33,948 bases of DNA from an uncultured Intestinimonas sp. (GTDB lineage Bacteria > Bacillota > Clostridia > Oscillospirales > Oscillospiraceae): contig NZ_CALXGA010000017.1 in the NCBI RefSeq assembly GCF_944387725.1, positions 1-33,948 of the forward strand, in the 5' to 3' direction. Of the stretch, positions 7,208 through 25,331 are shown piece by piece. Numbering within the stretch: the first letter of the stretch is position 1; each line of letters begins with the position of its first letter. A program made the translations under genes and the position numbers. The notes under the pieces are model-generated. The model made no database searches. It saw only the letters and a program-made list of their open reading frames with translations, and was not told the origin of the DNA.

Positions 7208-7231
7208 AACAGGGCTCCTCGTGTTTCTCTA

Positions 7232-7393
7232 GGGCTTGTTTGAAAATTGGCGATGTGTCCAGCAGCGAGGGATTTTGAGCCGCTGGCAAGCAATTTTTTT
7301 GCAGGAATCCTGGCGGATTTCAAGGAAAAATTGCGCCGTCCAGGGGGCAAAAGACCCGCCGGTTGGGCATGTTGACATTTTTCAAACAAGCCC
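7232..7393 (+). mobile_element. MITE-like element, copy 2 (full length)
   Basis: This 162-bp element has inverted ends GGGCTTGTTTGAAA and is flanked by TA on both sides (7230-7231 and 7394-7395). Its interior is an imperfect nested palindrome, for example CAATTTTTT near 7290 against AAAAATTG near 7330, around AATCC-TGGC-GGATT. There is no transposase. The TA target is typical of IS630/Tc1-mariner relatives, so it could be a non-autonomous derivative of such an element. It lies inside an otherwise co-directional gene block, between the tiny ORF at 7393-7503 and dut. Confidence 0.92.
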
Positions 7394-7503
7394 TAGTTGG
7401 ATGGCTTTGCCGGGCATCCGTCCGCTCGGCGGCTCCTGCGACAGCGCATCAGGGCGGCGGCGTTTAGGACCACGTTCCACCCTTTCGGCGGTTTCTTCTG
7501 CAC
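7393..7503 (-). CDS. possible small basic protein (36 aa), unrecognised
   Basis: A GTG start at 7503 has AAAGGAG eight bases upstream and opens a 36-codon frame rich in Arg, Lys and Pro (PPKGWNVVLNAAALMRCRR near the start). It ends at a TAG whose TA is the target dinucleotide of the adjacent repeat element; without the element the same TAG would still form. It follows the U32 gene by 19 bp. I recognise no family. The good ribosome binding site argues for translation, but the short length and low complexity argue for caution. It could equally be part of another interspersed repeat. Confidence 0.35.
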   Translation of the reverse strand: MQKKPPKGWNVVLNAAALMRCRRSRRADGCPAKPSN

Positions 7504-12533: not shown

Positions 12534-12569
12534 GGGAAATCACCTCAAGGCTGGCTTCACATTGTCTTA

Positions 12570-12730
12570 GGGCTTGTTTGAAAATTGGCGATGCGTCCAG
12601 CGGCGATGGATTTTGGCCGCTGGCAAGCAATTTTTTCGCAGGAATCCTGGCGGATTTCAAGGAAATATTGCGCCGTCCAGGGGGCAAAAGCCCCGCCGGT
12701 TGGGCATGTTGACATGTTTCAAACAAGCCC
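12570..12730 (+). mobile_element. MITE-like element, copy 3 (full length)
   Basis: This 161-bp copy has both GGGCTTGTTTGAAA ends and TA on each side (12568-12569 and 12731-12732). It lies between two divergent RHH reading frames and abuts the first recognisable codons of the rightward one. Its right end carries an in-frame ATG (12706) for that gene. Confidence 0.92.
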
Positions 12731-12900
12731 TAAAAGAAAAGGTCAGTCTGACCCTGGATATGACCGTTCTGGAGCGTCTTCACACGTTAGCGGAAGACTC
12801 GGACCGCTCCCTTTCCAGCTATGTCAATCTTGTCCTGCGGGACCACCTGGAGAACCAGGAATCGGTGGAGCCCTCCAGAAGAAACATTTTACATCGGTGA
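12706..12900 (+). CDS. ribbon-helix-helix protein with 5' end replaced by the MITE
   Basis: The frame encodes KEKVSLTLDMTVLERLHTL followed by DRSLSSYVNLVLRDHLEN, which is the beta strand, helix and helix of an Arc/CopG-type RHH protein. Related proteins dimerise and bind operators or act as antitoxins. The native start is not visible. The only in-frame ATG lies inside the repeat element at 12706 and would add MLTCFKQAL before the RHH strand, giving 64 residues. No good ribosome binding site precedes it, so the gene may be silent. The stop TGA overlaps the ATG of the next gene. Confidence 0.6.
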   Translation: MLTCFKQALKEKVSLTLDMTVLERLHTLAEDSDRSLSSYVNLVLRDHLENQESVEPSRRNILHR

Positions 12901-16322: not shown

Positions 16323-17189
16323 CTATGCCTCCGCCGCCAGCAGGGGGGCTACCCTCCGGGCCATGGCTGCGGCGTCAATGGAAGCGCCGGTGAAATGCTC
16401 CAGGGCGAAGACCGCCTGGTAGAGGAGCATCCCCAGGCCGTTGAGGGCCGTGTGTCCTCCGGCCCTTGCCCGGGACAGGAGGGCGGTCTCGGCGGGGTGG
16501 TAGATGGCGTCGAAGACAGCCGCCTCCGGGGGCATGGCGTCCACAAAGCCCAGGTCCTCGAACTGCCCCCCGCCCCCGGCCATGCCCAGGGAGGTGCAGT
16601 TCACCAGCAGCCCGGCCTCCCGGCACAGCCGCCGGAGGGTCTCCGGGGCGAAGTCCGCCGGAGCCAGCCGCCCCGCCGGGTCCTGGGCACAGAGGGCCTG
16701 GGCCTTCTCCGCCGTGCGGTTGCAGACCCAGACCCGCTCGGCCCCCTGCTGGGCGAGCTTCAGGGCCACCGCCTTGGCCGCCCCGCCGGCCCCCAGGAGC
16801 ACCACCTTCCGTCCCTCCGGCCGGACCCCGGCGTCCTCCAGGGCCCGGAGGAAGCCCAGGCCGTCGGTGTTGCAGCCCAAGGCCCGGCCCTCCCGGAGGC
16901 AGACGGTGTTCACCGCCCCGTAGAGCCGGGCGTCAGGGTCCAGGCCGTCCATCAGGGGGACCAGGGCCTCCTTGTGGGGCATGGTGGCGTTGAACCCGGC
17001 ATACCCGGCGCACTTTGCGGCGGAGAGCCAGGCCGCCGTCTCCCCGGCGGGGACCGGCTGGCAGAGGTAGACATAGTCCAGCCCCAGGGCTGCAAGCATG
17101 GTGTTGTGGATCAGGGGCGATTTGGAGTGGAGCACCGGGTCCCCGATGACACAGAGCTTTCGGGTGGTGTTTCTCAACTCGACCAGCAT
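16323..17189 (-). CDS. aroE: shikimate dehydrogenase
   Basis: This 288-residue enzyme reduces 3-dehydroshikimate to shikimate with NADPH. The substrate-binding start GDPVLHSKSPLIHN, the catalytic Lys in FNATMPHKEAL, NTDGLGF, and the nucleotide-binding glycine loop VLLGAGGAAKAVALKL with the following NRT (NADP-preferring) are all present. The start ATG is directly after the aroQ stop (TGAATG). It is the last gene of the aro operon. Confidence 0.96.
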   Translation of the reverse strand: MLVELRNTTRKLCVIGDPVLHSKSPLIHNTMLAALGLDYVYLCQPVPAGETAAWLSAAKCAGYAGFNATMPHKEALVPLMDGLDPDARLYGAVNTVCLREGRALGCNTDGLGFLRALEDAGVRPEGRKVVLLGAGGAAKAVALKLAQQGAERVWVCNRTAEKAQALCAQDPAGRLAPADFAPETLRRLCREAGLLVNCTSLGMAGGGGQFEDLGFVDAMPPEAAVFDAIYHPAETALLSRARAGGHTALNGLGMLLYQAVFALEHFTGASIDAAAMARRVAPLLAAEA

Positions 17190-17639
17190 TCAGAGCCCCT
17201 CCCCGCGGCCCTGCTCCTGGGCCAGGAAGTAACCCATAGCGGCCTCATAGCCGTAGAGGCCCAGGCCGCAGATCTGGCCCACGCAGGCGGGGGCGGTGAC
17301 GCTCTTGTGGCGGAATTCCTCCCGCTGGTGGATATTGGAGATGTGGACCTCCACGCAGGGCACCGAGACGGCCTTGAGGGCGTCCAGAATGGCGATGGAG
17401 TAGTGGGTGTAGGCCCCGGGGTTCATGACGATGGCGTCGTAGACCCCCTGGGCGGCCTGGATGGCGTCCACAATGGCCCCCTCGTGGTTGGACTGGAAGC
17501 ACTCAGCCGAGGCGCCATGGGCAGCGGCGAAGGCCCGGAGCCGGTCACAGAGGCCCTGGTAGTTCTCCTGGCCGTAGATGCCGGGCTCCCGCTGGCCCAG
17601 CAGGTTCAGGTTGGGTCCGTTGATGATGAGGAATTTCAT
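17190..17639 (-). CDS. aroQ: type II 3-dehydroquinate dehydratase
   Basis: This 149-residue dodecameric-type dehydroquinase converts 3-dehydroquinate to 3-dehydroshikimate. The N-terminal GPNLNLLGQREPGIYG carries the catalytic Arg and Tyr, NPGAYTHYSIAILDAL binds substrate, and EVHISNIHQREEFRHKS carries the catalytic His. ATG 17639 overlaps the aroK stop by four bases (ATGA), so translation is probably coupled. Confidence 0.96.
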   Translation of the reverse strand: MKFLIINGPNLNLLGQREPGIYGQENYQGLCDRLRAFAAAHGASAECFQSNHEGAIVDAIQAAQGVYDAIVMNPGAYTHYSIAILDALKAVSVPCVEVHISNIHQREEFRHKSVTAPACVGQICGLGLYGYEAAMGYFLAQEQGRGEGL

Positions 17640-18667
17640 GGGGCGACCTCCTCGAAAAAAATGGTGGCGGCCAGGGCGGCGGCGGCCTCCGGGGTGGGCT
17701 CCGCGATGAAATAGTCGGCCCAGCGGCGGTAGATGGGCTCCCGCTGGCGGTATCGCTCCACAAAGGCCTCCCGCCCTCCCTGGCCCAGAGGCCGGCCGGC
17801 CATGGAGACCGTGTCGTAGGTCTCCCCCGGGTCCCGGCGCAGCCAGAAGACCAGGCCGCTCTCCTTCAGGGGGGCCATGGCCTCCGGCTGGGTGGGGAGC
17901 CCCCCGCCGCAGGCGATGACCAGTCCCCGCCGCCGGGAGAGCTCCTCCGCCGCCGAGCGCTCCCGGGCCCGGAAGCCGGCCTCCCCCTCGGCGGCGAAGA
18001 GCTCCGGGATGCTCCGGCCGGCCTGGGCCTCGATCCAGGCGTCGGTGTCCGCCAGCTCCCGGCCCAGCCGCCGGGCCAGGAGCCCCCCCACGGTGGTCTT
18101 GCCACAGCCCATCATGCCGATGAGCACCAGATTTCGGTCCGCTTCCCCGTTTCTCCGGGGGACAGGGTCCTCCGGCGGCAGCCGGTCCGCCGCCGGGAGG
18201 TACAGGGCCTGCCGGACCAGGGCCTGGAGCTCCCGGCCGTCTCCACAGCCCATCTCTGCCAGGTCCTGGGCCAGGTCCAGCTCCAGCCTCAGGTCCGTGC
18301 CCTGCACCACGCCGCCCAAGTGCTCCTCCAGCGAGAGCAGCCGCCGGGCGGGCTCCCACCAGGCCTGGGGGTCCTGGCTCCGCCGGCTCCGGACCCCTGC
18401 CCGGACGCGCGCCAGCAGGGCCTGCCGGACCCGCTCCCGGCTCCAGTCCCGGTTCCGCAGGGCCTCGGACAGGGTGTGGGTCAGGGGCAGCCACCCCTTG
18501 GTGACGCTCCAGGCCGCGTCTACACAGGCCAAGGGCGGATCGGGGTCCTCCGCCATGCGGCGGTCCAGTCCGGCCTCCACCTCCTCCAGGGTCAGGATGC
18601 CGCACTCCAGCCCCAGGAGCCAGAAGGCCAGCTGCTCCCAGACCGTGAGGGCTTCCCGTTCCGCCAT
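17636..18667 (-). CDS. aroK: shikimate kinase with a long N-terminal extension
   Basis: The C-terminal half (about 179-343) is a complete shikimate kinase: Walker A GMMGCGKT (184-191), the DTD/AWIE substrate site (ADTDAWIE), FRARE, and the glycine-rich ACGGGLPT. It phosphorylates shikimate with ATP. Ordinary shikimate kinases are about 170 residues. Here 178 further residues precede the kinase in the same frame; they are predicted mostly helical (WEQLAFWLLGLECGILTLEE early on; LRLELDLAQDLAEMG later). I do not recognise that region. No ribosome binding site and start are needed internally, so fusion is likely. It starts three bases after the pheA stop and overlaps aroQ by four. Confidence 0.93.
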   Translation of the reverse strand: MAEREALTVWEQLAFWLLGLECGILTLEEVEAGLDRRMAEDPDPPLACVDAAWSVTKGWLPLTHTLSEALRNRDWSRERVRQALLARVRAGVRSRRSQDPQAWWEPARRLLSLEEHLGGVVQGTDLRLELDLAQDLAEMGCGDGRELQALVRQALYLPAADRLPPEDPVPRRNGEADRNLVLIGMMGCGKTTVGGLLARRLGRELADTDAWIEAQAGRSIPELFAAEGEAGFRARERSAAEELSRRRGLVIACGGGLPTQPEAMAPLKESGLVFWLRRDPGETYDTVSMAGRPLGQGGREAFVERYRQREPIYRRWADYFIAEPTPEAAAALAATIFFEEVAP

Positions 18668-18670
18668 GGC

Positions 18671-19825
18671 TCAGCCCTCCCCGCTGGAGCGGTAGTTGCC
18701 CAGGACCCGGAGCTGTTCGGCGGTCTGGAAGAGCTCCAGCAGGGCCCCGTCCATGCCGGGAGCGGTCAGGTCCCCGGAGAAGTCGGCGAAGAAGCGGTAC
18801 TCCCAGCTCCGGCACGGGATGGGCCGGGACTCCAGCTTCAGGAGGTTCAGGCCGTTGACGGCGAAGATGGTCAGCAGCTCCTGAAGGGAGCCCGCCCGGT
18901 GGGGCAGGCGGAAGAGAATGCTGACCTTGTCGCTCCCCGACCGGCGCTCCATCACCGGGGAGACCACTACGAAGCGGGTGTCGTTGCTGTCGGAGTCGCT
19001 GATGTGCTCCGCCAAAATCTCCAGGCTGTAGAGCCGGGCGGCCCGGGGGGAGCAGATAGCGGCCTGGCCGGGCGACCCGGACCGGGCCACGAACTGGGCG
19101 CTCTCGGCGGTGTTGAGCCGGGGAACGCAGGTCCAGCCCCGGCCCTTGAGGAAGCCGGCGCACTGGAGGAGCCCCTGCTCGTGGGAGTAGACGGTGGTAA
19201 CGCCGTCCAGCCGGGCCCCGGCGGGGGCGGCCAGGCAGTGGTCCACCTTCACGGTCTGTTCCCCCACGATGGAGTGGCCGTACTGGGCCAGCAGGTCGTA
19301 GACCTGGTTGATGGAGCCGGTGGAGCTGTTTTCGATGGGCACCACGCCATAGTCGGCCTCTCCCCGCTGTAATGCCTGGAAGACCTCCTCCCAGGTCCCC
19401 ACATGGGACCGGGGCAGGTCCTCCCCGAAGAAGCGGGCCGCGGCCTCGTCGGCGTAGGCCCCCGGCTCCCCCTGGTAGAGGACCCGGGGGTGCTCCAGGG
19501 GGGCACGGGCCCCGTCCATGGCCCCCCGAATCCGGGCGTAGTCCTGGTTCCCCGCCTCGTTCACCAGCCGCCGCTGCTGGCGGCGGCTGATGCCCATAAT
19601 GGCCTCGTAGAGGGCGGCCACATCGTCCCGGAGGGCCGGGTCGGCCACCAGGGCCGTCTTTTGGGCCAGGACCTCCCGTTCCCGCTGGGGGTCCAGCACC
19701 GGGATGCCATGGGCCCGCTTGTACTCCCCCACCCGCCGGGTCAGCTCCATGCGCTGGAGAAAGAACTCCGTAAGCCGGGCGTCCAGGGCGTCGATCGCTT
19801 CCCGGAGGCCGTTGAGCTCGCTCAT
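18671..19825 (-). CDS. pheA: bifunctional chorismate mutase/prephenate dehydratase
   Basis: This 384-residue P-protein has an AroQ-class chorismate mutase at about 1-85 (LREAIDALDARLTEFFLQRM, then RVGEYKRAHG), a prephenate dehydratase domain at about 110-285 (YQGEPGAYADEAA; VVPIENSSTGSI; the Thr-containing TRFVVVS) and a C-terminal ACT domain at about 297-375 with the GSLQELLTIFAVNGLNLLKLESRP motif that binds phenylalanine in relatives. It makes phenylpyruvate from chorismate and is likely inhibited allosterically by Phe. It sits between aroC and aroK, which ties the operon to phenylalanine. Confidence 0.96.
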   Translation of the reverse strand: MSELNGLREAIDALDARLTEFFLQRMELTRRVGEYKRAHGIPVLDPQREREVLAQKTALVADPALRDDVAALYEAIMGISRRQQRRLVNEAGNQDYARIRGAMDGARAPLEHPRVLYQGEPGAYADEAAARFFGEDLPRSHVGTWEEVFQALQRGEADYGVVPIENSSTGSINQVYDLLAQYGHSIVGEQTVKVDHCLAAPAGARLDGVTTVYSHEQGLLQCAGFLKGRGWTCVPRLNTAESAQFVARSGSPGQAAICSPRAARLYSLEILAEHISDSDSNDTRFVVVSPVMERRSGSDKVSILFRLPHRAGSLQELLTIFAVNGLNLLKLESRPIPCRSWEYRFFADFSGDLTAPGMDGALLELFQTAEQLRVLGNYRSSGEG

Positions 19826-19859: not shown

Positions 19860-20903
19860 TCAGATGCCCAGCAGGGTGCAGGAGGCCAGAGCCGCCGCCG
19901 CCTCGATGACGGGGACCGCCCGGGGGACGACGCAGGGGTCGTGGCGGCCGTGGATGGAGAGCTCCACCGGCTCCCCGGTCCGCAGGTCCACGCTCTCCTG
20001 GGGGCGGGCGATGGAGGCAGTGGGGCGCATGGTCACCTCAAAGACCACGGGCATCCCGTTTGTGATGCCCCCATTGACCCCGCCGGCGTGGTTGGTGCGG
20101 GTGACGATCCTGCCGTCCCGGACCTCAAAGGGGTCGTTGGCCTCGCTGCCCCGCATGAGGGCCAGGGCCACCCCCGCCCCGAAGTCCACTCCCTTGACGG
20201 CGGGGACGGCAAAGAGGTACTGGGCAAACAGGCCCTCCACATTGCGGCCGAAGTCGGGGGAACCCAGTCCGGCGGGGAAGCCGGTGACCACGCACTCGAT
20301 GGAGCCCCCCACCGAGTCCCCCTCCCCCTTGGCCTCCAGAATGGCGGCCTTCATCTCCTCCCCCTTGGCGTCGTCCAGCACAGGGAAGTCCTTCTCCGCC
20401 ACAGCCCGGAGGTCCTCCGGGTCCTCCAGGCCGGCGTCGGAGATGCCATAGATGGCGCTGATGTGGGCCCCCACCCAGACCCCCCGGCGCTCCAGGAGCT
20501 GCTTGGCCACCGAGCCCGCCGCCACCAGGGGGGCGGTGAGCCGGCCGGAGAAGTGTCCGCCACCCCGGTAATCCAGGCAGCCGCCGCTTTTGAGGAAGCC
20601 GGCGTAGTCTCCGTGGCTGGGCCGGGGGGTGAAGCGCAGGGCCTCGTAGTCCCTGGAGTGCTGGTCCTCGTTGAAAATCAGGAGGGCCAGGGGGTCCCCG
20701 GTGGTCTTCCCCTCGAAGACTCCCGAGAGGACCTGAACCTGGTCGGCCTCCTTTCGGGCGGTGGACCAGGGGTTTTTCCCGGTGGCCCGGCGGGCCAGCT
20801 CCCGGGCTATGCGGTCCAGGTCCAGCTCCAGCCCGGCGGGAGCCCCCTCCAGCACCACCCCAATGGCGGGGCCGTGGGATTCGCCGAAAATCGTGTGCCT
20901 CAT
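19860..20903 (-). CDS. aroC: chorismate synthase
   Basis: This 347-residue enzyme makes chorismate from EPSP, using reduced FMN as cofactor. Family signatures GESHGPAIG, RRATGKNPWSTARKEADQV and DYRGGGHFSGRLTAP are clear. The start is unusual: ATG 20903 leaves only MRHTIF before GESHG, about eight residues fewer than common homologues. GGGAGG lies seven bases upstream, though, and the frame further up runs inside aroA, so the short N-terminus appears real. The ATG overlaps the aroA stop by four bases (ATGA). Confidence 0.95.
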   Translation of the reverse strand: MRHTIFGESHGPAIGVVLEGAPAGLELDLDRIARELARRATGKNPWSTARKEADQVQVLSGVFEGKTTGDPLALLIFNEDQHSRDYEALRFTPRPSHGDYAGFLKSGGCLDYRGGGHFSGRLTAPLVAAGSVAKQLLERRGVWVGAHISAIYGISDAGLEDPEDLRAVAEKDFPVLDDAKGEEMKAAILEAKGEGDSVGGSIECVVTGFPAGLGSPDFGRNVEGLFAQYLFAVPAVKGVDFGAGVALALMRGSEANDPFEVRDGRIVTRTNHAGGVNGGITNGMPVVFEVTMRPTASIARPQESVDLRTGEPVELSIHGRHDPCVVPRAVPVIEAAAALASCTLLGI

Positions 20904-22087
20904 ACCGTTCCCTCCCGGCGGATGTCCCCGCCCAGCTTCTCATAGTCCTCCCAGAAGCTGGGGTAGGACTTGGCCACGCACTCCGCCCCGGTGATGGTCA
21001 CCGGGGCCTCGCAGGCCAGGGCGGCCACAGCGGCCATCATGGCGATGCGGTGGTCGTTGCGGCTGTCCACCACCGCCCCGCCGGGGAGGGAGTCCCGGCC
21101 CGTCAGGGTCAGGCTGTCGGGGCCCTCCAGGACCTCCGCCCCCAGGGCCGTCAGAACCTCTGCCACGGCGGAGAGGCGGTCGCTCTCCTTGTCCCGGAGC
21201 CGGGCGGCGTGGGTGAGGTGGGTGACGCCGCAGCGTCCGGCGGAAATGGCCGCCAGGGGGGGCGCCAGGTCGGGGCACTGGGACACGTCCAGTTCCACCT
21301 CTCCGGGCCGGGCCAGGGTCCAGTAGTCCAGAGCAATGCGCCTGTCCCCCTGGACCGAGTCGTGGTTGAGGCCCTGAATCTCGATGTCCCCGTCCAGGAA
21401 GCTGGCGGCGTACCAGAAGGCGGCCTGGGACCAGTCGGCCTCGATAGTCAGGTCCCGGGCCCGAAAGGTCTGGTTCCCCGGCGCCCGGAAGCCCTGGGGC
21501 CCCTCCTCCACGGCGACGCCGAATTTCTCCAGCGCGTCCAGGGTCAGGTCCACATAGCCCCGGGACTCCAGGGGGGTGGTGAGGACGATCTCGCTGTCCC
21601 CCTCCAGCAGGGGCAGGGCGTAGAGGAGCCCCGTGACGAACTGGGAGGACACATCGCCGGGCAGGGCGTAACGCCCCGGCGTGAGCCGCCCCCGGACGGT
21701 GAGACCGTCCCCGGTCTTCTCATAGGAAATCCCCTTCTCGTCAAAGAGGGTGAAATAGGGGCCCAGGGGCCGCTCCAAAAGCCGCCCCCGGCCGGTGAAA
21801 TGGCCGCCCCCCCGCAGGGCCAGGGCCACGGGAATCAGAAAGCGCAGGGTGGAGCCAGACTCCCCGCAGTCCAGGCGGGGCAGACCATCGGCCCCGGCGG
21901 GCCGGCCGTGCTTCAGGGCGGCCAGGCAGTCCCGGGTGGCCTGGATGTCCCGGGACTGGGCCAGGTTGGAAAGGCGGCTCTCCCCCTCCGCCAGGGCGGC
22001 GGCGATGAGGGCCCGGTGGGCGATGGACTTGCTGGGGGGCGGGGTGACGGTCCCCGCCAGGGGCTTGGGGGTGATGGTGACGTTCAT
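20900..22087 (-). CDS. aroA: 5-enolpyruvylshikimate-3-phosphate synthase
   Basis: This 395-residue EPSP synthase transfers enolpyruvate from PEP to shikimate-3-phosphate. It is slightly shorter than the usual 425-430 residues. Key motifs are PSKSIAHRALIAAAL (PEP/S3P site), LDCGESGSTLRFLIPVA and RLRDKESDRLSA near the C-terminus. The segment after the CGESGSTLRF block lacks the canonical GNAGT motif of class I enzymes, as is common in compact clostridial homologues. ATG 22087 overlaps the aroB stop by four bases. Confidence 0.95.
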   Translation of the reverse strand: MNVTITPKPLAGTVTPPPSKSIAHRALIAAALAEGESRLSNLAQSRDIQATRDCLAALKHGRPAGADGLPRLDCGESGSTLRFLIPVALALRGGGHFTGRGRLLERPLGPYFTLFDEKGISYEKTGDGLTVRGRLTPGRYALPGDVSSQFVTGLLYALPLLEGDSEIVLTTPLESRGYVDLTLDALEKFGVAVEEGPQGFRAPGNQTFRARDLTIEADWSQAAFWYAASFLDGDIEIQGLNHDSVQGDRRIALDYWTLARPGEVELDVSQCPDLAPPLAAISAGRCGVTHLTHAARLRDKESDRLSAVAEVLTALGAEVLEGPDSLTLTGRDSLPGGAVVDSRNDHRIAMMAAVAALACEAPVTITGAECVAKSYPSFWEDYEKLGGDIRREGTV

Positions 22088-23166
22088 GGAAAGTCCTCCT
22101 CTCGCTGGAGCAGCCGCAGCAGCTCCGCCTTGGGCAGCTTGTGTGGGACGGCCCTGCCCAGGGCCGACAGGAGAATGAGGGTGATGTCCTCCCCCGCACC
22201 CTTCTTGTCCAGGCCCACGGCGGCGGCGTAGCCGGCCTGGGAGCAGGCAATGCGGGCGGGGAGTCCCAGGGCCCCCACCGCCCCCGCGATCTGGCCGGAG
22301 ACCTCCGCCGGAGTGACCCCCAGCGCCGCCCCCAGCCGGGCCGCCAGCACCATCCCCGCCGCCACCGCCTGGCCGTGGGTCCACCGGGTATAGTGTCCCG
22401 CCAGCTCGTAGGCGTGGCCCAGGGTGTGTCCAAAGTTCAGCAACATCCGCGCCCCGGTGTCCCGTTCGTCCTGGACCACTACGGCGCGTTTTAAGTCGCA
22501 GCAGGTATACAAAATGGACTCAATTTCGGCCCGCAGGGCCCCCCGGCTGGGCCGCTGTGCCAGGAAGTTGAAGAAGCCCCGGTCAAAGATACAGCCGTAT
22601 TTGAGGACCTCGGCCATACCGTCGGCGAAGGTCTTGTCGTCCAGGGTGTCCAGGGTGTCCGGGTCCATGAGGACCAGCCGGGGCTGCCAGAAGGCCCCGG
22701 CCAGGTTCTTCCCGTGCTGGAGGTCAATGGCCACCTTCCCCCCCACGGAGGAGTCCACCTGGGAGAGGAGGGTGGTGGGGATCTGGACGAAGTCCACCCC
22801 CCGGAGGATGGTGGCGGCGGCGAAGCCCGCCAGATCTCCCACCACGCCGCCCCCCAGGGCAATCACGGCGTCGGTGCGGGTGAGGCCGAAGGCCATCATC
22901 TCCTCCCACAGGACGGCGAGCTGCCGGGGGGACTTGGAGGGCTCCCCGGCGGGGACGGGGACCAGGAGGGCCTCAAAGCCCGCCTGGGAGAGGCTGTCCA
23001 GCACCCGCTGTCCGTAGAGCGGGCCCACCGTGGTATCGGTGACCACGAAGAGCCGCCGGGCCCGGGGTAGGGCGGCCTGGATGCGCACACCGGCCCGGTC
23101 CAGCAGGCCCCCCGCGATTTCGATGTCGTATGCCCGGCCGGGCAGGTCCACCGTCAGGGTCTTCAT
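22084..23166 (-). CDS. aroB: 3-dehydroquinate synthase
   Basis: This 360-residue NAD-dependent, metal-dependent synthase cyclises DAHP to 3-dehydroquinate. Visible family blocks are EPSKSPRQLAVLWEEM, ALGGGVVGDLAGFAAATILRG, QIPTTLLSQVDSSVGGKVAID and the metal-binding LLNFGHTLGHAYE. A GAGGAGG site lies eight bases before ATG 23166, and 13 bp separate it from aroF. It is the second gene of the operon. Confidence 0.96.
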   Translation of the reverse strand: MKTLTVDLPGRAYDIEIAGGLLDRAGVRIQAALPRARRLFVVTDTTVGPLYGQRVLDSLSQAGFEALLVPVPAGEPSKSPRQLAVLWEEMMAFGLTRTDAVIALGGGVVGDLAGFAAATILRGVDFVQIPTTLLSQVDSSVGGKVAIDLQHGKNLAGAFWQPRLVLMDPDTLDTLDDKTFADGMAEVLKYGCIFDRGFFNFLAQRPSRGALRAEIESILYTCCDLKRAVVVQDERDTGARMLLNFGHTLGHAYELAGHYTRWTHGQAVAAGMVLAARLGAALGVTPAEVSGQIAGAVGALGLPARIACSQAGYAAAVGLDKKGAGEDITLILLSALGRAVPHKLPKAELLRLLQREEDFP

Positions 23167-23179
23167 GGGCGTTTCCTCC

Positions 23180-24193
23180 TCAGCCCTGCTGGGTCAGCCA
23201 CTGCCGGAGGCTGGTGACCTTCCGCATCAGGGCGTCGAACTTGGCGGGTGTTAGGGACTGCTGTCCGTCGCATTTGGCGTGGGGCGGGTCGTTGTGGACC
23301 TCTATGATGAGGCCATCGCAGCCGATGGCGGTGGCGGCCAGGGCCAGGGGCTCCACCATCCAGTACATCCCGGCGGCGTGGGAGGGGTCCACCACAATGG
23401 GCAGGTGGCTCATCTGCCGGATGGCGGGGATGGCCGAGATGTCCAGAGTATTCCGGGTGAAGGTCTCGAAGGTGCGGATGCCCCGCTCGCAGAGGATGAC
23501 GTTCTCATTGCCCTCGGCCATGATGTACTCGGCGGACATGATCCACTCCTCGTAGGTGCTGGATAGGCCCCGCTTGAGGAGGATGGGCTTGGACATCTTG
23601 CCCACCTCCTTCAAAAGCTCGAAGTTCTGCATGTTCCGGGCCCCCACCTGGACCACGTCCACCTCCCGCTCGAAGAGGTCGGCCATGCGGGGGTCCATGA
23701 TCTCGGTGACGATGGGCAGGCCGGTCTTAGCCCGGGCCTCCATCATCAGGTCCAGGCCGGGGGCGCCCATGCCCTGGAAGGAGTAGGGGGAGGTCCGGGG
23801 CTTGAAGGCCCCGCCCCGGAGGAGCTTGGCCCCGGAGGCCTTCACGTCCTCGGCCACTTCACAGATCTGCGCCTCGCTCTCCACCGAGCAGGGGCCGGCA
23901 ATGACGGCGAAGTTTCCCCCGCCGATCTTCACGTCCCCCACAGTGACCACGCTGTCCTCTGGGTGGAACTTGCGGTTGGCCTTCTTGTAGGCCTCCTGGA
24001 CCCGCATGACCCGCTCCACGTTGGGCTCCATGGAAATCTTATCGATGTCCAGGCTGATGGTATCTCCCACCAGTCCCAGGATGCTGCACCCCACGCCGTT
24101 GGTGATGCCCACGTCCAGGCCCATGCCCCGGAACTTGTCGGCCAGGGCCTGAATGTCCTCCTGCTTGGTGCCTGGCTTCATGATAACTACCAT
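23180..24193 (-). CDS. aroF: DAHP synthase, type I-beta with ferredoxin-like N-terminal domain
   Basis: This 337-residue enzyme condenses PEP and erythrose-4-phosphate, the committed step of aromatic synthesis. A 70-residue ferredoxin-like domain (VVIMKPGTKQEDIQALADKF onward) precedes the TIM barrel with AGPCSVES, LRGGAFKPRTSPYSFQG and DPSHAAG. In Thermotoga-type enzymes this N-terminal domain closes over the active site when Tyr or Phe binds, so feedback inhibition is likely. It is the first structural gene of the operon and lies behind an attenuator-like leader. The ribosome binding site AAAAGGAG is ten bases from ATG 24193. Confidence 0.96.
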   Translation of the reverse strand: MVVIMKPGTKQEDIQALADKFRGMGLDVGITNGVGCSILGLVGDTISLDIDKISMEPNVERVMRVQEAYKKANRKFHPEDSVVTVGDVKIGGGNFAVIAGPCSVESEAQICEVAEDVKASGAKLLRGGAFKPRTSPYSFQGMGAPGLDLMMEARAKTGLPIVTEIMDPRMADLFEREVDVVQVGARNMQNFELLKEVGKMSKPILLKRGLSSTYEEWIMSAEYIMAEGNENVILCERGIRTFETFTRNTLDISAIPAIRQMSHLPIVVDPSHAAGMYWMVEPLALAATAIGCDGLIIEVHNDPPHAKCDGQQSLTPAKFDALMRKVTSLRQWLTQQG

Positions 24194-24236
24194 AACAAAT
24201 TCTCTCCTTTTCTCCCCAATGGACGCGGAAAGATAG

Positions 24237-24275
24237 AAAAAGCGCGCCCATTGACGGTAAAATCAATGAGCGCGC
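24237..24275 (-). terminator. attenuator terminator ahead of aroF
   Basis: On the minus strand GCGCGCTCATTGA, an 8-base loop, and TCAATGGGCGCGC form a 13-bp stem with one G-T pair, followed at once by TTTTTCT. It lies 44 bases upstream of the aroF start and downstream of the operon promoter. It must therefore be bypassed for the operon to be expressed, which is the hallmark of an attenuator. Confidence 0.88.
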
Positions 24276-24306
24276 GGTAAGCCGCTGCAAAGGGCCCCCT
24301 TCCGGG

Positions 24307-24319
24307 GCCTGCCCATTCA
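24307..24319 (-). promoter_or_regulatory. candidate antiterminator segment at the leader stop codon
   Basis: The minus-strand sequence TGAATGGGCAGGC begins with the leader's own stop codon and matches 10 of 13 bases of the terminator's 3' arm (TCAATGGGCGCGC). AATGGGC can pair with GCTCATT in the terminator's 5' arm (seven contiguous pairs, one of them G-U), which would block terminator formation. A separate GGCCCC/GGGGCC hairpin lies between the two pairing partners. Confidence 0.6.
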
Positions 24320-24427
24320 CCTGATTCCGCCGTCTCTGCCCATGCCAAAAAAGCCGGCGCCCGTAAATCGGGCCCAGCCAAAGCGGGTAAAGAAGCGGGA
24401 TGCAGTTGTGAGGCAAACGGTATCCAT
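24317..24427 (-). CDS. phenylalanine-rich leader peptide of the aro operon
   Basis: This 36-codon frame starts at an ATG with GTGAGG eight bases upstream and only about 30 bases after the promoter -10. It encodes six Phe (residues 12, 13, 16, 21, 26 and 27, including two FF pairs) and one Trp (18), far above chance in so short a peptide; SRFFTRFGWARFTGAGFFG holds them all. It ends ahead of a terminator that precedes aroF. By analogy with the enterobacterial pheA leader, scarcity of charged tRNA-Phe would stall the ribosome, leave the segment at the stop codon free to pair with the terminator's 5' arm, and allow read-through. It makes no functional protein by itself. The call is inference from layout and composition. 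Confidence 0.8.
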   Translation of the reverse strand: MDTVCLTTASRFFTRFGWARFTGAGFFGMGRDGGIR

Positions 24428-24457
24428 AAAAACAACCTCACCGAACAGGTTGGAGGT

Positions 24458-24486
24458 ATTTTACACCTCTTCGGCGGAAAATGCAA
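24458..24486 (-). promoter_or_regulatory. aro operon promoter
   Basis: Minus-strand TTGCAT (24481-24486) and TAAAAT (24458-24463) are 17 bp apart, a near-consensus housekeeping promoter. Transcription would begin near 24450, just upstream of the leader peptide's ribosome binding site, giving a leader of about 255 bases before aroF. Confidence 0.82.
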
Positions 24487-24729
24487 GTCCCAATTTTCAC
24501 CCGATGTGTCACAACACGGCCCTCTGAACCGAAATCCTGACAGACCCACCGTGCGCGGGCATGGGGAAGGGAGGCGCTTCTGACCGCCGGGGAGGGGCCC
24601 TCCGGGCCCGGCTGGCGGTCTTTCCCAGCCATTTCTGGCTGCTGGAGGAGAACGGGCAGCTCCTGGCCTATGCCAACGGCATGGTGAGCCTTCAGCCCCG
24701 GATCACCGACGACCTCTATGCCGAGCCTA

Positions 24730-24891
24730 GGGCTTGTTTGAAAATTGGCGATGTGTCCAGCAGCGAGGGATTTTGAGCCGCTGGCAAGCAATTTTTTCGC
24801 AGGAATCCTGGCGGATTTCAAGGAAAAATTGCGCCGTCCAGGGGACAAAAGACCCGCCGGTTGGGCATGTTGACATTTTTCAAACAAGCCC
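24730..24891 (+). mobile_element. MITE-like element, copy 4 (in the GNAT gene)
   Basis: This 162-bp copy has both terminal repeats and is preceded by TA at 24728-24729. Its sequence is almost identical to copy 2. It forms the first half of a head-to-tail pair sharing one TA (24892-24893) with copy 5. Confidence 0.93.
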
Positions 24892-24893
24892 TA

Positions 24894-25055
24894 GGGCTTG
24901 TTTGAAAAATAGCAACGTGTCCGGCAGCGAGGGATTTTGGGCCTCTGGCAAGCAATTTTGACCCAGGAATCCTGGCGGATTGCAAGGAAAACTTGCGCCG
25001 TCCAGGGGGCAAAAGACCCGCAGGTTGGGCATGTTGACATGTTTCAAACAAGCCC
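24894..25055 (+). mobile_element. MITE-like element, copy 5 (in the GNAT gene)
   Basis: This 162-bp copy lies directly after copy 4 and is followed by TA at 25056-25057. It differs from copy 4 at several positions (for example ATAGCAACGTGTCC against TTGGCGATGTGTCC, and TTTTGACCCAGG against TTTTTTCGCAGG). The pair is therefore two separate insertions rather than a recent tandem duplication. The second element evidently used the TA at the edge of the first. Confidence 0.93.
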
Positions 25056-25331
25056 TAGCCGGCATCGGGAGGACGGCCCCTGGCAGCTGATTTTCGGCCT
25101 GGCCACCCAGCCAGACTGCCGGCGGCGGGGGTTGGCCGGGCAGGTGCTCCGGCGTGCCGCCGACGCCCGGGCCCAGGGACGGCGGGGGATGGTCCTCACC
25201 TGCAAGGAGGGGCTGATCCCCTTCTACCAGTCCTTCGGCTTTGAAAATCGGGGCCTCTCGGCCTCGGTCCACGGCGGGGCGGTGTGGTACGACATGGTGC
25301 TGGCGTTTCCCCAAGAGGCCGATGCAGAATA

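Follow-up and report, generated by a model that had tools for sequence, protein, structure and literature searches.

A predicted phenylalanine-responsive leader attenuator upstream of the aroF operon of an uncultured Intestinimonas sp., and apparent Phe/Tyr recoding of aroF leaders among Clostridia

The aroF operon of an uncultured Intestinimonas sp. raises the question of how a leader peptide coded by phenylalanine could stand in front of the common aromatic pathway, on which tyrosine and tryptophan also depend. Aromatic operons of Firmicutes are usually taken to be under the control of T-boxes, TRAP or repressors. A preliminary description of the locus had nevertheless proposed a complete phenylalanine attenuator and had called the control of all shikimate steps by such a leader unusual. 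We examined the locus in the stretch of 33,948 nts that carries it (hereafter the window), together with related aroF loci.

The features of the region are collected in Table 1. The leader ORF includes six Phe codons (12, 13, 16, 21, 26 and 27) and one Trp codon (18). These codons, the promoter, the ribosome binding site and the 36-codon frame were all recovered on the minus strand where the preliminary description had placed them. The promoter agrees with the consensus at 8 of 12 positions and lies under the cut-off of the promoter scan. When the sequence upstream was shuffled 2000 times, an ORF with a Shine-Dalgarno sequence, an ATG and at least six Phe codons turned up in 14 cases, and the folding energy of the RNA 24455-24235 is 4.6 sd below that of dinucleotide shuffles. 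The predicted terminator stem (24275-24242) is followed by a TTTTT tail (24241-24237); it consists of 14 pairs by the tool used and ends 43 bases upstream of the aroF ATG at 24193, close to the 13 pairs and 44 bases given earlier. The stop-codon segment TGAATGGGCAGGC and TCAATGGGCGCGC in the terminator 3′ arm are alike in 10 of 13 bases as judged by eye, in agreement with the earlier count. The Shine-Dalgarno sequence of the leader lies within a small stem, CAACCTGTTCGGTGAGGTTG, at 24452-24433, with U5 behind it; this stem could restrict translation of the leader.

Table 1. Coordinates of the leader elements and operon genes in the window
Feature	Position	Strand	Remarks
promoter	24458..24486	(-)	-35 TTGCAT 24486-24481, 17-nt spacer, -10 TAAAAT 24463-24458
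Shine-Dalgarno GTGAGG of leader ORF	24436..24441	(-)	
leader ORF	24317..24427	(-)	ATG 24427, 36 codons + stop 24319-24317; peptide MDTVCLTTASRFFTRFGWARFTGAGFFGMGRDGGIR
apical hairpin P1 within leader ORF	24353..24378	(-)	loop CGAUUUA 24370-24364
segment 2, predicted antiterminator strand overlapping stop codon	24306..24321	(-)	core AATGGGC 24317-24311
segment 3, terminator 5′ arm, partner of segment 2	24262..24275	(-)	predicted pairing
segment 4, terminator 3′ arm + U5 tract	24237..24255	(-)	
aroF, DAHP synthase (PRK08673 / TIGR01361)	23180..24193	(-)	
aroB	22084..23166	(-)	
aroA	20900..22102	(-)	
aroC	19860..20903	(-)	
pheA, chorismate mutase / prephenate dehydratase	18671..19825	(-)	strong matches, below curated NCBIfam cut-offs
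aroK, shikimate kinase domain from ~residue 178	17636..18667	(-)	below curated cut-offs
aroQ, type II dehydroquinase	17190..17639	(-)	
aroE	16323..17189	(-)	

The genes behind the leader follow the order aroF-aroB-aroA-aroC-pheA-aroK-aroQ-aroE. Since pheA is included, the aroF operon is a Phe-branch operon. The same genome carries a second DAHP synthase, 66% identical to the first and followed by tyrA, with a Tyr-rich leader in front. This arrangement recurs in the two-copy genomes of the family, where one copy belongs to the pheA operon with a Phe leader (type A) and the other to an aroF-tyrA operon with a Tyr leader (type B). Most of the sampled single-operon genomes carry aroF-tyrA-aroBAC-pheA-aroEKQ (type C) with mixed leaders, e.g. 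MLNKLYAAVYFYFYFSRSEVKAFSAA. In extended A loci, pheA was located downstream in 19 of 20 (L210 is cut by the contig) and tyrA in none of the 20; nor was tyrA seen in any of 80 named A loci, for which up to 3 kb downstream were covered. As side observations in the window, the aroK ORF includes an N-terminal extension of ~175 residues outside the kinase match, and a weakly self-complementary repeat of ~168 nts is present in five copies (44-217, 7229-7396, 12566-12733, 24727-24894 and 24891-25058), one of which matches the reference at only 78%. Upstream of the aro promoter, two of the copies stand head to tail. At least 40 near-full copies with 97–100% identity were counted genome-wide; as only 40 of 207 candidates were scored, the true number may be higher. 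The repeat looks like a recently spread MITE.

To what extent is the leader conserved? Among the 80 named aroF orthologs of type A, L078 and L119 were dropped for too little upstream sequence, leaving 78 assessable loci. A leader was found upstream of aroF in 65 of these, 62 by an automatic rule and three by eye (L086, L107, for which the start codon was not assigned, and L115). At least three Phe codons are present in 61 of the 62 automatically found leaders, the exception being L095 with two, and a GAGG Shine-Dalgarno sequence is likewise present in 61. The conservation of Phe codons in orthologous leaders, on which the preliminary description depended, was thus observed, and the frame is unbroken in Candidatus Intestinimonas pullistercoris (L052), the closest named relative found (AroF 96% identical), whose leader MQTARLTTASRFFCCFGWARFMSTGFFGMGRDSGIK is intact and in the same frame as that of the window. 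A leader of this kind is also present in a culturable relative, Flavonifractor plautii ATCC 29863 (L070).

The remaining 13 of the 78 loci carry no Phe leader. A sigma-factor-like gene lies upstream of six of them, with a short hairpin-bearing 5′ end, and a cytidine-deaminase-like gene upstream of five (both labels were given from translations), while L104 and L106 keep the terminator but have no Phe ORF. In L082, L085, L088, L089, L092 and L101, which are without a leader, a GC-rich hairpin, in most cases with a U tract behind it, was observed between the promoter and the aroF ribosome binding site.

For further comparisons the loci were aligned on an Arg-Phe anchor, defined as Arg or His followed by Phe or Tyr, which caught 59 of 81 loci; these 59 were used for the terminator, duplex, P1 and promoter analyses. 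A terminator is present in all 59, with a mean of -22.9 kcal/mol. Upstream of all 59 leaders lies a TTG/TA hexamer pair that agrees with the consensus at 8 or more of 12 positions, compared to 42 of 1180 shuffled stretches, and promoter-like hexamers are found 105–125 nt upstream of the anchor in 56. This conserved promoter stands before the leader, so that transcription is predicted to start there and not downstream of 24275, in line with the earlier proposal. More generally, when a dense aromatic ORF plus a terminator was required, 106 of 140 aroF loci passed, compared to none of 700 shuffles and one of 140 antisense strands.

We then come to the pairing on which a switch would depend. In the anchored loci, the segment near the stop codon, with a median start at +1, is complementary to the 5′ arm of the terminator. 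Taken singly, 21 of the 59 loci gave a duplex with p<0.05, and for the window p was 0.27; support for the window duplex comes from the comparison among loci. The two partners vary together by clade, a point that the preliminary description had raised for checking: in L129 the arm GGTCTCATT is matched by the post-stop segment AATGAGACC, in L087, L091, L102, L117 and L124 the arm GAAGCTCAT by RTGAGTTTC, and in L130 the arm GGGCACATT by AATGTCC. The 3′ strand of P1 was also considered as the main antiterminator. Duplexes with the terminator arm reached z below -1 for the P1 3′ strand in 32 of 59 leaders and for the post-stop segment in 30, but the P1 strand is weak where the arm has changed (L087, L091, L102, L117, L129), whereas the post-stop segment follows the arm. 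The P1 pairing was kept as ancillary.

Folding was also computed for RNA that stops short of the terminator 3′ arm, with the footprint of a ribosome imposed. In the window, the probability that the terminator 5′ arm is captured by upstream sequence is 0.90 when the ribosome is stalled at Phe and 0.40 when it is at the stop codon, in agreement with the proposed choice between 2:3 and 3:4 pairing. The state without ribosome did not follow the textbook attenuator, in which a 1:2 hairpin enforces termination of an untranslated leader: P1 is present, but the arm is captured upstream with a probability of 0.87, and read-through is predicted. The stalled value exceeded the stop value in 48 of the 58 A loci, 36 of the 39 C loci and 7 of the 12 B loci; here group C takes in all family loci that have a leader and are not of type B, among them L177, L182 and L187, which are without tyrA. 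When every codon was scanned as a stall site, aromatic codons did better than others in C (31/39, p 1.3e-6) and no better in A (32/53, p 0.25) or B (7/12, p 0.73). As judged by these two results, the equilibrium model backs the switch clearly in C, mainly via the stop-codon effect in A and weakly in B.

Within the leader ORF lies the hairpin P1. Its loop CGAUUUA (CGATTTA in DNA) is present in 64 of 66 leaders, the exceptions being L113 and L115. The anchor Arg is encoded by CGA in 59/59 leaders, a codon used for 5 of 166 Arg in seven of the eight genes of the operon, and the anchor Phe by TTT in 59/59, while the same seven genes use TTT in 12 of 72 cases and TTC in 60. When identical P1 segments were collapsed, the 42 distinct ones were on average more stable than their synonymous versions (mean z -1.38), 13 of them with p<0.05. 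Double-sided changes in the stem were observed in L098, L114, L131, L129 and L083. Covariation is modest: the outer stem is paired at 94.3%, compared to a shuffle mean of 90.7% and maximum of 93.3%, and pairing of the inner registers was not above the shuffle maxima in the 59 anchored leaders. Given the fixation of the CGA and TTT codons and a stability beyond that of synonymous sequences, the conserved peptide GWARF.GAG probably reflects in good part a constraint on the RNA. The Trp codon, present in 53 of the 59 A leaders, may be explained in part by the P1 stem, as leaders that keep the hairpin can have another codon there. A U-rich stretch follows P1, and P1 may be a polymerase pause hairpin.

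These data bear on two other ways of reading the leader. The peptide itself, FGWARFxGAGFFGM, might stall the ribosome on a ligand rather than codon by codon, in the manner of the TnaC peptide, which stalls the ribosome with Trp. Residues other than Phe are indeed retained in the 59 anchored leaders (Gly +5 in 58, Gly -3 in 50 and Trp in 53; Arg and the next Phe were excluded from this count because the anchor demanded them). Against this, conservation sits at the nucleotide level (the CGA and TTT codons invariant in the anchored set), the segment folds better on average than its synonymous versions, the hairpin persists in spite of an altered peptide in L098, L108, L114, L129 and L131, and C leaders encode very different peptides at the same location. 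Following the synonymous randomisation and codon-use tests, we rate arrest by the nascent peptide as very improbable. No meaningful NCBIfam or Pfam match to known leader-peptide families was obtained for three leaders, the best (E 0.13, a photosystem subunit) being taken as chance.

It is likewise very improbable that the leader ORF is incidental to a terminator governed without translation by a T-box, a riboswitch or an RNA-binding protein. T-box leaders (RF00230) sense uncharged tRNA and control amino-acid operons and, unlike the window element, have no leader peptide. The covariance model gave no match at the window aroF, and none of 4227 Rfam models reached the gathering score anywhere in the window or gave a match with E<=1 in 24150-24620. 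The scan was able to detect T-boxes, as shown by positive controls upstream of trpE: all 8 loci scanned carry one before the best trpE of relatives (the match scores above gathering in one locus and below it, with E <=1e-14, in seven; two weaker trpE-like matches, L200 and L201, were left out). Six loci in which a leader was not detected (L138, L151, L257, L274, L283, L292) also gave no T-box and only a cobalamin riboswitch, in L292. Also against an incidental ORF, Phe, Tyr or mixed codons recur across different peptides and operons. What speaks for control without translation is the near-invariance of CGAUUUA, for which no cause is apparent, and the six leaderless A loci with a hairpin, mostly with a U tract, immediately behind the promoter; since the hairpin is present there without a leader ORF, another control may act at these six loci.

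Four sequence features of a ribosome-mediated attenuator are found here: a leader ORF with a ribosome binding site downstream of a promoter, conserved codons for the end product, a terminator ahead of the first structural gene and a predicted, mutually exclusive antiterminator at the stop codon, the latter weak in B. We therefore favour, with a probability of roughly 0.9, a transcription attenuator that would respond to charged tRNA-Phe. From the parts, their conservation and their complementarity we infer the following course of events. RNA polymerase would start near 24450 and a ribosome would translate the Phe-rich leader. With little Phe-tRNA available, this ribosome would stall at Phe codons 12, 13 or 16, the stop-codon segment would stay free to base-pair with the 5′ arm of the terminator, and transcription would read through into aroF to aroE. 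When Phe-tRNA is plentiful, a ribosome at the stop codon would cover this segment, the terminator would form and transcription would end before aroF.

The preliminary description had gone further and proposed that Phe governs the entire aromatic pathway. This stands in so far as aroB, aroA, aroC, aroK, aroQ and aroE, which are also needed for Tyr, lie behind the Phe leader. It is too simple in that pheA belongs to the operon and a separate DAHP synthase and tyrA serve Tyr. As for Trp, trpE and trpA were not found in the window genome, which is 84.7% complete; in 30 chosen genomes, trpE was matched in eight (seven above cut-off) and trpA above cut-off in eight. What had been called unusual is mostly explained by pheA, by the second, Tyr-leader aroF-tyrA operon and by the trp genes not found. 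Because pheA is in the operon, the Tyr copy elsewhere and T-boxes on the trpE of relatives, the puzzle of a whole pathway under Phe largely dissolves. The observation is confirmed, and its predicted mechanism is an ordinary one.

If the window element is a Phe-responsive attenuator, do leaders of other aroF operons carry codons that fit their genes? Leaders also occur upstream of aroF in other families of class Clostridia. Among 44 further loci from three families, some of them seen before, 12 carry a dense aromatic ORF and a terminator, and at many aroF loci in other Clostridia families no leader was found by the rule. We assigned 116 of the 140 loci to three operon classes; 21 were unclassified, and three with tyrA and common genes, in which pheA was not seen, were kept apart. 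A leader and terminator are present in 30 of 37 loci with pheA and no tyrA, in 17 of 23 with tyrA and no common-pathway genes and in 48 of 56 with both tyrA and pheA. The mean F/(F+Y) of these leaders is 0.74, 0.24 and 0.57, respectively. Phe codons exceed Tyr codons in 29 of the 30 leaders of the first class (one equal) and Tyr codons exceed Phe codons in 16 of the 17 of the second (one equal), whereas loci with both genes gave 30 leaders with more Phe, nine with more Tyr and nine equal. Exceptions to the rule are L284 and L285 (no tyrA, F6 Y5), L219 (no tyrA, F4 Y4), L147 (tyrA only, F5 Y5) and L190 (both, F2 Y5). Ignoring shared descent, raw p values are 1.8e-8 for Phe versus Tyr operons, 4.3e-6 for Phe versus both and 9.5e-9 for Tyr versus both. 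In the raw counts, in which the class-level Phe rows number 10, leader codons thus tend to fit the end branch of the operon.

The attenuator could be real and this association still be inherited from a few ancestors instead of reflecting repeated adaptation. Once descent was corrected for with independent pairs on the AroF tree, the link between codons and operon was not significant: of six independent Tyr pairs, on average 3.4 were for and 0.0 against, and of six Phe-versus-both pairs, 2.3 were for and 1.3 against. For this test six repeats and nine rows with an AroF of less than 300 aa were omitted from 44 rows, and the operon class, based on 1.5 kb downstream only, was coarser than in the 140-locus comparison. 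This shortfall in significance speaks for shared inheritance, as does the fact that one clade holds 16 of the 23 Tyr-type rows. On the other hand, Tyr-rich leaders with tyrA-only operons occur outside that clade (L259, L265, L286), Phe-rich leaders without tyrA occur in L177, L187, L255/L256, L260, L273 and L319, and no Tyr pair, on average, points in the opposite direction. We regard inheritance alone as a possible but rather doubtful account. Somewhat better than even, in our view, are the chances of one Clostridia-wide family of leader attenuators on the DAHP synthase operon, the specificity of which would have been repeatedly rewritten: mixed Phe/Tyr codons for both branches, Phe codons after the loss of tyrA and Tyr codons on aroF-tyrA. 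Tyr-rich leaders would then sense tyrosine, and each operon split would amount to a natural re-coding of a sensor for tRNA charge. Recoding between paralogous operons is well seen in the predicted leaders and not yet statistically independent of descent.

Separately, B promoters share an inverted repeat like ACTTTAACAC-CAAAAA-GTGCTAAAGT that spans the -35 to -10 region, in L132 (~242 nt upstream of aroF), L133-L144 and L149-L151. In the 16 B loci inspected, 6/8 to 12/12 arm positions match. The repeat is possibly a repressor operator forming a second layer of control. L151 keeps the inverted repeat, and its leader was not detected.

How does this element compare with known systems? In E. coli, the leaders of pheA and pheST are pheL and pheM. 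The aroR leader upstream of aroF in C. glutamicum was reportedly described by Neshat in 2014. E. coli pheA is subject to Phe-tRNA-dependent leader attenuation (PMC11802643), and pheA and pheST resemble the window at the level of function in having such a leader ahead of a Phe-branch gene. Unlike in E. coli pheA, the window leader stands ahead of aroF, the rest of the common pathway and pheA, and its ORF includes an apical hairpin with a near-invariant loop. In C. glutamicum a Phe-Tyr-Phe leader, aroR, is reported before an aroF (DAHP synthase) operon, with attenuation under Phe limitation (PMC11802643, PMC4046766). The likeness, a Phe leader upstream of a DAHP synthase operon, is again functional; aroR differs in belonging to Actinobacteria and in its short F-Y-F run, and the passages cited describe no Phe/Tyr recoding series. 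According to a review, Tyr availability had no effect on the C. glutamicum aroF operon in spite of the Tyr codon in the leader. A leader codon is therefore not proof of sensing. In Acholeplasma, uORFC-13-1 is described as a uORF with at least one Phe, a promoter and an adjacent terminator before aroF (PMC8632094). By this description its layout is that of the window, and in the same text it is reported only from Acholeplasma and an environmental sequence. Leader attenuators also occur in some Firmicutes for His, and differ from the window in their operons and codons, both for His.

The kind of control is thus already known from E. coli pheA, C. glutamicum aroR and the His attenuators of Firmicutes. 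In open-licence PMC full text, no paper was recognised on these Clostridia leaders or on Tyr-rich leader attenuators. The new element, as far as precedent in that text goes, is a Clostridia-wide set of aromatic leaders with Phe/Tyr recoding, including Tyr-rich leaders.

The main interest of the locus lies in this recoding between paralogous operons. If true, a leader-peptide system for the shikimate pathway would stand beside trp T-boxes in several families of Clostridia, so that two sensors of tRNA charge would divide the pathway between them. With their Phe, Tyr and mixed leaders, the paralogous operons would provide a natural series of joint changes in sensor codons and gene content, in which the evolution of regulatory specificity could be tested with simple reporters.
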